From positions 42,752,035-42,816,034 of the forward strand of contig NC_134831.1 of NCBI RefSeq assembly GCF_004210375.1: a stretch of 64,000 nt of DNA. Direction: 5' to 3'. A model generated the notes under the pieces. It made no database searches and was not told where the DNA came from. It saw only the letters and a list, made by a program, of their open reading frames with translations. Position numbers and translations under genes: made by a program. Each line of letters starts with the position of its first letter. Positions within the stretch are counted from its first letter, which is position 1. This DNA is from Tachypleus tridentatus (Eukaryota > Arthropoda > Merostomata > Xiphosura > Limulidae). Positions 9,606 through 37,985 of the stretch are shown here, piece after piece.

Positions 9606-9845
9606 TTCTAGGGCATTAGAGGCTTCTTTTTGGAGTGGGACGTGCTTCTCCGTGGAAGTGGCATTTTGGTTGGTAGTTTGGCTTTGCTGTTTAACTGTTA
9701 AGTTAAAAATAAATATAAATTACATGAATAGAAAGCAAATGCATAAACCTAAATTATTTAATTACAGTTAAAAATTATGTTTTTAAAGTAAACTTACATA
9801 TATATATACTTTTCTTCTTACAAAACACTTTCTCCGTCTATTTGG

Positions 9846-10063
9846 CGGCCCGGCATGGCTAGTTAGTTAGGACAGTCGACGTGTAATCTGAGAGTCGAGG
9901 GTTCGAATCTCTGTCACACCAAACATTCTCGACTTTTAAGCCGTAAAACGTTATACTATGGAGGTCAATCCTACTATAAGTTGGTAGAATAGTAGCCCCA
10001 GAGTTGGCGGTAGGTGGTGGTGACTAGCTGCCTTTCTTCTAGTTCTTACATTGCTAAAATTAT
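9846..10063 (+). repeat. tRNA-derived SINE (family 1), degenerate
   Basis: Begins GGCCCGGCATGGCTAG, has the pol III B-box GGTTCGAATCT, and continues into the family 1 body (AGTTGGCGGTAGGTGG, then CTAGCTGCC). The 3' tail is eroded. The orthologous copy in spacer 2 is at 36828-37030, so insertion came before the spacer duplication. Confidence 0.85.
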
Positions 10064-10647
10064 TGACGAAAAACGTTTACGTAGCTTTTTTGCTAACCTA
10101 ATGATGACCTAAAAAGTACGAAACGTCATTCTGTACTTTATTTTAATACCTATACCAGCCGTCTTCAGGATACAATTTTACTTCAAGAGGATTTCTCGTC
10201 ATCACAAATAACTACATTTTTGTACATTTGTTTCAAATGGATTCCTTGATATCATAAATAACATGTTGCAAATCTTTCATATTATTCATAATATTAACTC
10301 AAGTTTATCATGGTGATGCATTTTAATCGTCATTTCTTTATGCTCCGTATCGGTTTCATATTTACCTGATTTTAAATAATAAAACATTTTTTGCACAACA
10401 AACACGTACAGGTACTGGTCCAATAATTATTCAGTTTATTTTTTGATGGTTTTGAGTTCAACGAAATATTATTTTTGGTTAGTGACATAAAACAAAATAC
10501 ATACACCAGTGTAAAAAAGGTTTCAGTAAACTAGTTTATACAAATTCAGAAGAAGTTAGTACCAAAATGTCCAATTTGGAAATGAGCATGTTCTTTACTT
10601 TTATTATATTTCCATAACTTACATTGTAGTTAGTTAGGTCCATTAAA

Positions 10648-10760
10648 TGAGACCCCCAGTAACACAGTGGTATGTATGCGGACTCGCACCGCTAAAATGC
10701 AGGTTTAAATACTCTTGGTGGGCAGAGAACAAATTACCCACTGTGTAGCTGTGTACTTGA
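10648..10760 (+). repeat. Short SINE family 2 copy
   Basis: A head reading CCCCAGTAACACAGTGGTAT is followed by a degenerate B-box region and GTGGGCAGAG. It lies directly against a family 1 SINE. The same two-SINE composite is at 37613-37985. Confidence 0.7.
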
Positions 10761-10785
10761 GGCCTGGCATGGTCAGGTAGGTTAA

Positions 10786-11002
10786 CACTCCTACGAAAAG
10801 TCTGGCCTAATAGGCCCCAGAGCAACTTGAAAGGTTATTAATATTAGGCTAATAATTTTGTATTTAAATGAAATTGCCATTTAAATCCATTAATGAATGG
10901 ATTAACGAGATTCCCACTGTCCCTATCTAATATCTAGCGAAACCACAGCCAGGGGAACGGGCATGGAGAAATCAGGACTAGAAACGTCTTTTCGTAGGAG
11001 TG
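10786..11002 (+). mobile_element. 217-bp TTAA-flanked MITE-like element
   Basis: Perfect 15-bp terminal inverted repeats, CACTCCTACGAAAAG at 10786-10800 and its complement at 10988-11002, are flanked on both sides by TTAA. The paralogous SINE in spacer 2 has a single TTAA at 37740-37743, a clean empty site. A TTAA target is the hallmark of piggyBac-type transposases, which makes this a non-autonomous piggyBac-like candidate. The terminal bases are not the commonest piggyBac ends, so the superfamily is inferred from the target site. It carries no ORF. Its right half is a fragment of 28S rRNA gene. Confidence 0.8.
10893..10975 (+). pseudogene. 28S rRNA gene fragment inside the TTAA element
   Basis: About 80 bp match the highly conserved 28S segment containing ATGAATGGATTAACGAGATT, CTAGCGAAACCACAGCC and GGGAACGGGC, with a few substitutions. 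This part of 28S is where the R1 retrotransposon target lies. Only this piece is present, so it is not a functional rRNA gene. The match is from memory of the conserved 28S sequence, but its length makes chance very unlikely. Confidence 0.85.
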
Positions 11003-11266
11003 TTAAGGCGTTCGACTCGTAATCTGAGGGTCACGGATTCGAATCATCTGGGCACAAAAATGATCGCCCTTTCAGTCGTGGGGGCGTTATAATGTTACGG
11101 TCACTCGAAGTATTCGTAGGTAAAAGAGTAACTCAAGAGTTGGCGGTGGGTAGTGATTATCAGCTACCTTCCCTCTAGTCTAACACTACTAAATTAGGAA
11201 CTAGAACAGATAGCCCTCTTGTACGTTTTCGCGAAATTCAAAAAACAAACAAACAAAAATATTTTG

Positions 11267-12058
11267 CTCTTAATTCAAAACAAACTACACAATTAAATGA
11301 TATTTATTTTTGCGTTATTTGTCATAATCCTAAATATTATATAATTTTACACATTATTAATAATGAAGTGCATTTGCTCCAAACAATGCAAGTGACCTCA
11401 TAGTGGCTTGTACCTGATAACGGGTCTAATAATGTGTTTATATTAACCTCCATGTAAAAAACAATGTTTGCTTGTCTTAGAGCAAAGCCATATTAAGCTC
11501 TTTGCTCTCTACACTGCAGGAACTAGAAATCATTATTTTATATAAGAAGTCTGTAAACTTGGTGCTGTCCTAAAGAGGACCAACCGTTTATGTGACTCTT
11601 GCACCTAATTCGGCGCCAGGAATTATCTTATAGTATTCAAAACGTCTTCATCTCTGAATATCACAGCTATTGTGTGGCTGACATATTATTATACGTTCTT
11701 ATCTACTTTCTTTGATAACTTACTAATGATGTTGACATTATTGTATTAAACTTTAAGGACAATTTATGAGATTGTGTAACTATTGGAACAATATATATCA
11801 CTTTTTTCCAACTCGAAACACGGACTGTAAATTAAGTGTTCTGCCTGTTATGTCAGTGCAATAAATTCGCCAAAAAATTCAATGAGACATTCCCTTCTTT
11901 AGAGAAACGAGTGTAATGCAACGTATATCCATTATCTTATCATTGTGTAGGAAGACTTAGAAACTTACAACTTATTAGCTAGATCTAGAACGTCTGGAAA
12001 GATAGATAGTAAAACAATTCTGCTAGTGTTTGAAAACAGTCTGGTATTTAATGAATGG
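11267..12058. other. Spacer with a family 2 SINE remnant, no gene
   Basis: AT-rich. A short minus-strand family 2 SINE remnant (AGAGCAAAGCCATATTAAGC) lies at about 11475-11530. Alignment with spacer 2 stops near 11455. Nothing coding is seen. Confidence 0.45.
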
Positions 12059-19966: not shown

Positions 19967-21490
19967 TAAAATGGCTGGCATGGATTGAGAAACTTTTATG
20001 TAAACGTTTCGACTTTCTTCGATCATGGTCAGGCTCACAAAGAAAGAAAGCGGTAACTAATTGACAGCTGACCACTTGTTTGAAGGCAGTAATTACAAAC
20101 AAATGTCCTAAGCATGAGCAATCCAGTATCACCAGTTCAAACACATGCAATTAATACAGCTTTACACCCTCCACTATACTGGTACAGATATGTAGACGAC
20201 ACGATTGCGGGATTCAAATCTACATAACATACACTTAATTTTTTCAATCACATTAACTCTATACATCCCAACATTAAGTTCACATGTGAACAGGAAGAAA
20301 GCATCAAATATCATTTCTTAACCTCAAGGGCCCGGCATGGCCAAGTGTGTTAAGGCGTTCGACTCGTAATCCGAGGGTCGCGGATTCGAATCCCGCTCGC
20401 ATCAAACATGATCGCCCTTTCAGCCGTGAAGTCGTTATAATGTGACGGTCAATCCCACTATTCGTTGGTAAAAGAGTAGCTCCAGAGTTGGTGGTGGGTG
20501 GTAATGACTAGCTGCCTTCCCTTTAGTCTTACACTGCTAAATTTGGGTCGGCTAGCACAGAGAACCCTCGAGTAGCTTTGTGCGAAATTCAAAAGAAACA
20601 AACAAATATTAACCTCAAAATTACAAACGAATACACAGTTTGAAACAGGAGTCCACCGAAAAATCACCCATACTGGACTATACATTACTTGGAACTCAAG
20701 ACATAAAAGAAAACAAACACTCAACATACTAAGAAACCAAATAAACACAGCCATGAAACTATGCTCACCAGATAAAATTAACGACCAATTAGACAAAATA
20801 AAACAATACTTCATCAACATCAATAAGTTCTCTTAGAAAACATTATACGCACACACCTAGACAAAAAGCAAAATCAACTAACAAATGTAAATATGCCCCA
20901 CGAATTAAAAAAAATCACGAAACCAAATACTGCTGCATACCATATATTCCCGACATCACCAGAGAAATATCTAACATTTGGCAGAAACTGATAATAAAGT
21001 ATGACATTCCATTTAATACCAAATTTATTCAAAAATCAGGCACAAAACTAAAGACTATACCATGTAACACCTACACTGCCACGACTTATATATTGGAGAA
21101 ACAAGAAGAAAAATTGAAATCAAATTCAAAGAACATATTTTCGAACAATGCAAATCAAATAAACAAAACATAACCATAGAAAACACTCAAATACTAAATA
21201 AAGAAACAAACGCAAAATTAAAGAAGCCTTACGTTTACAACAACTCAAGTCCAAATTAAACAAATACAAAGGAACACCTTCATACCTATATTTATAAATA
21301 TAATCAAACATCTAAGCACACCCTCTACATTCCTACAATCAATTACATAACCCGCATCAAATATGTGGTCAACTATGGGTTAGTTTCTTGTTTCTTTCTT
21401 TGTGAACCTGAAGATGACCGAAGAATATCGAAACGTTGTTCGCTCCTCTACATAGAGCTTTCTCTATCCATACCAGACAATTTTACGTAT
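19967..21490 (+). mobile_element. Penelope-like retroelement fragment with GIY-YIG domain
   Basis: The plus strand holds the end of a reverse transcriptase (YWYRYVDDTIAGF, about 20178-20215, the YVDD catalytic motif). After about 0.9 kb comes a GIY-YIG endonuclease (LYIGETRRKIEIKFKEHI, about 21085-21140). RT followed by GIY-YIG defines Penelope-like elements. A terminal segment of about 130 bp (21360-21490) occurs inverted at 19967-20095, flanking the body. Most of the RT is missing and the remaining frames are broken. A family 1 SINE interrupts it at 20328. Confidence 0.82.
20328..20608 (+). repeat. SINE family 1 inserted in the Penelope-like element
   Basis: Complete copy with A-box TGGCCAAGTGT, B-box GGATTCGAATCCC and a CAAACAAA tail. 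It is bounded by the 10-bp target duplication TTAACCTCAA at 20318-20327 and 20609-20618. Removing it restores a continuous Penelope reading frame across the site, so it is younger than that element. Confidence 0.95.
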
Positions 21491-36744: not shown

Positions 36745-36827
36745 TCCTAGGAGTGGGACGTTTCTAAAGCAGATGTATATATATATATTTTTTTTCTTAC
36801 CAAACACTCGCTCCGTCAATTTGGCGG

Positions 36828-37030
36828 CCCGGCATAGCTAGTTGGTTATGGATAGTCGACGTGTAATCTGAGGGTCGTGGGATCGAATTGCCGTCAAACC
36901 AAACACCTTCAAGACGTGAACCGTTATAGTATGAAGGTCAATTCCACTATTAGTTGGTACTAGAGTAGCCCCACAGTTCGCGGTAGGTGGCTGTGACTAG
37001 TTGCCTTCCCTCTAGTTTTTATATTGCTAA
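36828..37030 (+). repeat. SINE family 1, paralogue of the copy at 9846
   Basis: Same degenerate copy as in spacer 1, with GGCCCGGCATAGCTAG at the head and the same eroded tail. Confidence 0.82.
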
Positions 37031-37612
37031 ATTGTTATAGCTTATGTAGCTATTTTGTTAACCTAAAGATGATCCAAGAAGGTTAAATCGTCATTCTGTA
37101 CTTTATTTTAATACCTATACCAGCCGTCTTCAGGATACAATTTTACTTCAAGAGGATTTCTCGACATCGCGAATTACTACATTTTTAACAATTATATCAA
37201 CTGTTACTGCTTCAAATAGATTCCTTAATTTTATGAACAATAATGTTGCAACTCTTTCTTATTATTCATAATACTAACTGAAGTTTAACATGGTGATGTA
37301 TTTTAATCGTCATTTCTTTATGCTCAGGATCAGTGCCATATTTACCTGATTTTAAATACCAAAACATTATTTGCTCAACAAACACATATAGGTACTGGTC
37401 CAATAAATATTCAGTTGATTATCCTGAGCGTTTTGAGTTTAACAAAATATTATTTTTGGTTAGTGACATAAAACAAAATACATACACCAGTGTAAAAGAG
37501 GTTTCAGTAAACTAGTCAGAAGACGTTGGTACAAAAATGTCAAATTTAGAAACGAGCATGTTTTTTTTATTATATTTGCATTACTTACATTGTAGTTAGT
37601 TAAGTCCAATAA

Positions 37613-37717
37613 ATGAGCACAGTAATAACACAGCGGTATATATGCGGACTCACAATCGAGGTTTCAATACTCGTGGTGGACAGAGAACAGGTTGCTCACT
37701 GTGTGGCTTTGTACTTG
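37613..37717 (+). repeat. SINE family 2 copy
   Basis: Paralogue of 10648-10760: ACACAGCGGTATATATGCGG head and GTGGTGGACAGAG, directly followed by a family 1 SINE. Confidence 0.7.
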
Positions 37718-37985
37718 GGGCCCGGCATGGCAAGATGGGTTAATGCGTGCACTCGTAATCTGGAAGTCGCGGGCTCCAATCCACGTCGCATCAAAAATGA
37801 TCGCCCTTTCAGTCGTGGGTGTATTATAACGTGACGATCACTCCAAGTATTCGTCGATAAAAGAGTAACCCAAGAGTTGGCTGTGGGTGGTGATGATCAG
37901 CTGCCTTCTCTTTAGTTTCACACTTCTAAATTTTGGATGGCTATCACAGATCGCCCTCTTGTAACTTTGGGCGAAATTCAAAAAA
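37718..37985 (+). repeat. SINE family 1 with empty TTAA site
   Basis: Uninterrupted paralogue of the SINE at 10761-11266. Its single TTAA at 37740-37743 marks where the 217-bp element inserted in spacer 1. Confidence 0.9.

Follow-up and report, generated by a model that had tools for sequence, protein, structure and literature searches.

Palindromic (fold-back) MITEs of DNA transposons have arms derived from one transposon end, are non-coding and occur in high copy number, and 28S-derived SINEs (SINE28 type) are mobile, RNA-copied sequences with a 28S part. The presence of rDNA-derived sequence in a piggyBac element is already known from Pokey of Daphnia, in which the repeats stem from the IGS and ITS2 and are located in the large element (PMC3849761). 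For mPok, a length of about 750 bp, 90-110 copies, and an occurrence in 28S genes are reported (PMC3849761).

In this study, we analysed a stretch of 64,000 nt from Tachypleus tridentatus (GCF_004210375.1, NC_134831.1:42,752,035-42,816,034, forward strand), called the window in the following, whose coordinates are used below and whose longest reading frame remains under 170 aa. It harbors a 217-bp element which, judged from its sequence, is a piggyBac MITE with a rearranged piece of 28S (Table 1). With Pokey and mPok (PMC3849761) it has in common the piggyBac affiliation, the TTAA duplications, MITEs that share their ends with an autonomous element, and rDNA-derived sequence in the family, but it differs in being a 217-bp MITE with 28S coding sequence and about 2,000 copies. 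As in palindromic MITEs, the present family has arms from one transposon end, is non-coding, and has many copies, whereas in the subfamily represented here one arm is cut to its 15-bp end and a 28S chimera has been added. It resembles the SINE28 type as a mobile sequence with a 28S part; in contrast, its carrier is a DNA transposon, and its near-constant length of 217 bp, inverted ends, and TTAA duplication set it apart from 28S SINEs.

Table 1. Features of the 217-bp element and its insertion site (window coordinates; 28S positions in our own reference numbering)
Feature	Position	Strand	Remark
Whole 217-bp MITE	10786..11002	+	one of about 2,000 copies
Left TTAA target-site copy	10782..10785	.	
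Right TTAA target-site copy	11003..11006	.	
Left terminal inverted repeat CACTCCTACGAAAAG	10786..10800	+	
Right terminal inverted repeat	10988..11002	-	
piggyBac 5' arm	10786..10881	+	98% over 96 bp against the 5' terminus of the 2.2-kb element coding for the transposase (L079 7539-9770, minus strand)
Possible short antisense 28S stub	10884..10895	-	11/12 bases, E 0.5, weak
28S sense piece, reference 82-164	10893..10975	+	contains GGATTAACGAG
28S antisense piece, reference 333-318	10972..10987	-	joined to the sense piece via common TCAG
Unfilled TTAA, paralogous site	37740..37743	.	
Rest of target repeat	11000..11294	+	79% to copy at 20347-20640

A preliminary description had regarded the sequence as an inserted TTAA element, which was confirmed by its perfect inverted ends of 15 bp, the duplicated TTAA, and the paralogous empty site, to which the locus can be aligned with no gap at the TTAA after excision in silico of the element and one TTAA. 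The copy to which the target repeat is about 79% identical has a head (20337-20397) that scores as tRNA, and on this basis the target TTAA appears to lie within the tRNA-like head of a SINE. Left of the insertion, a stretch of about 1 kb (9798-10785) is paralogous to 36777-37743 with 81% identity and belongs to a more extensive unit, either duplicated or repeated.

For the characterization of the 28S part, we used a partly typed reference with its own numbering and with its downstream part taken from a diverged rDNA copy (L086), in which we take R2 cleavage to lie between positions 46 and 47. The about 80 bp of 28S reported previously proved to be real, with 83 bp at 96% identity to the typed canonical 28S (bit score of 137, with a maximum of 23.8 among 100 single-base shuffles of the element), but the length has to be corrected to about 105 bp, since a further 16 bp match 28S in antisense. 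Thus, the 28S part is a chimera, in which 83 bp in sense orientation jump at TCAG to 16 bp in antisense located about 155 bp further on, while the possible stub in front of it and the start of the sense piece form a small fold-back. The sense piece passes uninterrupted through GGATTAACGAG, with 9 more 28S bases upstream of its TTAA, and no element end abutting this TTAA was found inside the window element. Most likely, the 28S piece is a passenger.

A genome-wide search (genome size of 2.17 Gb) with the 19-base end plus TTAA and at most one mismatch resulted in 2,669 forward and 2,679 reverse matches (control 0 and 0), where an element with both ends intact contributes one match to each. The first 100 places in the list, all exact and all on contig C1, included 34 facing pairs, 25 of them with the spacing of the 217-bp element, 3 deviating from this spacing by no more than two bases, and 6 spaced otherwise; the remaining 32 places had no exact partner close by. 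The junction between left arm and 28S was matched 2,003 times and that between 28S tail and right end 1,953 times (at most 3 mismatches, control 0 in both cases), and the family of the 217-bp MITE comprises about 2,000 copies. We read 45 loci, namely the window copy, 14 chosen by similarity, and 30 by the exact right junction, of which 43 were full-length. After removal of 4 copies with flanks shared with another copy, 39 full copies were kept, strictly representing 38 insertions, as the flank of L022 is a slightly altered version of that of L015. Their divergence from the consensus averaged 1.49% (range 0 to 4.31), a spread which may in truth be wider because of the choice of 14 loci by similarity and 30 by exact junction. 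A TTAA was present on both sides in 38 of the 39 copies, the remaining one showing TTGA/TTAA. The lack of other copies with these ends or a target other than TTAA had been named as grounds for abandoning the idea of such an element; as the counts demonstrate, neither is the case. Overall, 217 bp without coding capacity, 15-bp inverted ends, and about 2,000 homogeneous copies characterize a MITE. Identical flanks at different places were seen for the copies L015, L016, and L022 and for L009/L010, which are due to larger duplicated segments or nested repeats.

Searching the genome for the piggyBac transposase family revealed 116 matches (from 1,650 candidates, of which 116 were scored), one of which (C12:23330406-23331407) adjoins a half-match of the window element. 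A unit of 2,232 bp including the TTAAs (L079 7539-9770) possesses the same ends as the MITE and an open frame of 536 aa; a second copy (L078 177-2413) is 96% alike, with its frame in pieces, and both units have the same ends and a TTAA on both sides. The deduced L079 protein matched PF13843 (DDE_Tnp_1_7) with an E value of 1.3e-67 and the solved piggyBac transposase 6x67 with 1.5e-72, with the conserved acidic, catalytic blocks (DEQ, DN, and GVDTLDQ) aligned. A protein search resulted in 122 relatives, the best with 65% identity over 65% of the query. It is this match of the first 96 bp and the ends to a transposase-coding unit, together with the TTAA duplication, that assigns the window element to the piggyBac superfamily, and the former suggestion of a non-autonomous piggyBac-family element with captured 28S thereby received its full-length partner. 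Given the shared ends and target, mobilization would be due to a transposase of the L079 type.

Family members with both ends and no 28S were read at 19 loci, chosen by similarity to the window element. Fifteen of them fold back over their entire length, a TTAA is found at both ends in 18, with a mutated TTAA in the other one, and their centres vary when inspected by eye. In two of them, inverted copies of the DNA flanking the insertion are present, 98 bp long and 100% identical in L034 and 116 bp long and 94% identical in L046, while no flank-matching sequence was detected inside the remaining 17. Thus, the interior of such MITEs is able to gain copied DNA, and L034 and L046 possibly represent a snapshot of break repair within the element. 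In a further member of 385 bp (L023), long arms enclose an ordinary 28S fragment of 88 bp (reference 85-172). L023 was discarded as founder of a larger family, as its right junction occurs only once in the genome with up to 3 mismatches.

A search was also made for the precise strand jump of the MITE, extended by an antisense 28S continuation absent from the MITE, and resulted in 26 matches with up to 3 mismatches (control 0). Twenty of these were read, of which 18 lie outside the MITE and two represent MITE copies that have suffered a small deletion. Together with L108 and L136, this amounts to 20 non-MITE chimera loci, 19 of them independent since L157 and L158 share flanks. The loci with the jump from about 164 to 333 are L148-L164, L167, L108, and L136; in L095, the jump is a few bases off. 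In 17 of the 20, the antisense tail is longer than the 12 bases of the MITE, and it reaches 16 or more in 12, long tails being partly selected because the search extended past the MITE sequence; in L108 and L136, found without the continuation, the tails comprise 11 and 8 matched bases, respectively, and are no longer than that of the MITE. Several of the long tails stop near a second TCAG..AAA motif. The sense 28S begins 5' of the start in the MITE at seven loci, six of which combine this with a longer tail, whereas five start at 82-85 like the 28S of the MITE. All 19 readable loci carry an A at the position of a MITE-specific G, and no element ends were found in the fetched stretches of the 20. 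Based on the 17 longer tails and the A in all 19 loci, the MITE probably acquired an already rearranged, dispersed 28S fragment, and as this fragment exists apart from the MITE, it is the likely donor.

Altogether, we consider it probable that a piggyBac MITE gained a dispersed 28S chimera and was then spread by transposase. Initially, the 2.2-kb piggyBac element with the ends CACTCCTACGAAAA would have given rise to palindromic MITEs made of its first 96 bp or so in inverted arrangement; these structures are present, and it is their order that we infer. One such MITE would then have gained, between its arms, a ready-made chimera of sense 28S to 164 and antisense 28S from 333, as indicated by the shared structure, most likely as filler during the repair of a break at or close to the centre of the palindrome, and its right arm would have been reduced to the 15-bp end. 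L034 and L046 display copying of flanks and not of distant DNA, so that a repaired break in the centre of the palindrome is a step that we infer. Finally, because both ends were kept, the transposase could have carried the chimeric MITE to TTAA sites, making it the commonest form of the family with about 2,000 copies and about 1.5% divergence.

With a 28S query, 40 candidates scored out of 1,108 gave 43 matches, which are about 110-175 bp long, 94-100% identical, and distributed over many contigs; some of those on C11 begin at the R2 site. A 36-base motif across this site was matched 277 times (at most 3 mismatches, control 0, any intact rDNA counted in), and the places of the first 100 of these were listed. 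Bare fragments, e.g., L081-L085, L087-L106, and L108-L147, are mostly about 140-150 bp long with recurrent ends, and L090 and L102 are tandem. In L086 (C11:3758163), L103 (C13), and L151 (C7), 28S is joined at the R2 site to an apparent R2 3' end, identified as such from its position and on visual inspection only; of the three, L103 and L151 are not part of the group of such loci on C11. Ends were measured in 71 fragments with matches of at least 80 bp, among which L098/L099 and L133-L135 have flanks in common; the start falls at 24-30 in 39 and the end at 161-176 in 54, and such recurrent starts would fit stops of reverse transcription on 28S RNA. Alternatively, the dispersed fragments may be a retroposon family moved by a LINE, one copy of which was retroposed into a palindromic MITE. 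These clustered ends are in line with this, as are the clear 17-bp target duplications at L083 and L105, duplications of at least 6 bp in 4/71 fragments compared to 1% of mismatched flank pairs, and the joining of an R2-3'-end-like stretch to 28S in L151 (by eye). However, duplications of at least 10 bp were found in 2/71 only, which also distinguishes the bare fragments from 28S SINEs. Furthermore, the end is fixed at neither side, no poly-A or other common tail was seen in the flanks printed, and L085, L098, and L100 seem by eye to substitute for a SINE stretch. Thus, we regard this retroposon scenario as rather unlikely.

The preliminary description had favored a Pokey-like capture of flanking rDNA. 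In such an origin, a MITE at a TTAA of a 28S gene would have captured flanking rDNA and later spread. Such a course is suggested by Pokey and its MITEs, which occupy 28S genes, and by the rDNA spacer repeats borne by Pokey (PMC3849761), and own-flank copying is seen in this very family in L034 and L046. Flank copying within rDNA is possible in principle, and the founder of the MITE might have arisen within rDNA, with the same chimera as its source. Yet, when element ends joined to the GGATTAACGAG site were sought, 5 matches were obtained, all with 3 mismatches (control 1); the element end is intact in a single match, on C6, which turned out to be a usual MITE copy not adjoined by 28S. For the CTCTTAAGG site, 5 matches with 2-3 mismatches were obtained (control 0), none with an intact end. 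Hence, neither the anticipated copies inside 28S nor an insertion into a fixed 28S TTAA as in Pokey was found at the two sites searched, which is weak evidence because the sequence read includes no complete rDNA unit; the end of contig C39, examined for an intact 28S unit, held only another dispersed fragment. Pokey is reported to prefer a C just upstream of the TTAA and AAATG downstream (PMC3849761), and these preferences would suit CTC-TTAA-GGTAGCCAAATG at the R2 site better than GGATTAACGAG. The former is located about 40 bp outside the captured piece, and the TTAA within the captured fragment is apparently not the site of Pokey. Above all, the captured piece runs through its TTAA with no end-TTAA-28S junction inside the window element and has the strand jump common to non-MITE fragments, so that capture of flanking rDNA is very improbable.

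That the chimeras outside the MITE are remnants of it, as their common exact junction and region and the tails of L108, L136, and L167, which do not exceed that of the MITE, might suggest, can practically be dismissed in view of extra antisense 28S in 17/20 and extra sense 28S in 7/20 loci, fetched stretches devoid of element ends, and the MITE-specific G in 0/19 readable loci, and is particularly hard to hold for the 12 loci with tails at least 4 bases beyond that of the MITE.

Going beyond the uptake of a dispersed chimera by a piggyBac MITE, we tentatively propose, with more doubt than confidence, that a defined part of the 28S (about 20 bp before to about 120 bp after the R2 site) is repeatedly copied, sometimes with a strand jump at a single preferred position, and that the copies are inserted into chromosomal breaks at hundreds of sites. 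Two or more of these insertions would have been in palindromic piggyBac MITEs, one becoming the family of about 2,000 copies, and an R2-like reverse transcriptase acting on 28S RNA could be the maker.

Literature searches limited to open-access full texts listed no title or abstract on a 28S-bearing MITE of about 2,000 copies or on a scattered rearranged 28S donor. One genome here displays a likely series from the transposase element via palindromic MITEs and filler uptake to a successful chimeric MITE, with a traceable donor, since the rearranged 28S fragment also occurs independently of the MITE. The recurrent ends of the fragments and their recurrent jump raise the question of what copies 28S into chromosomes and whether R2 drives it. 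For practical work in this species, 28S probes or the mapping of 28S reads would strike about 2,000 non-ribosomal sites. If true, the proposed copying of 28S into breaks and MITEs would amount to a two-step route from repair filler to mobile DNA.
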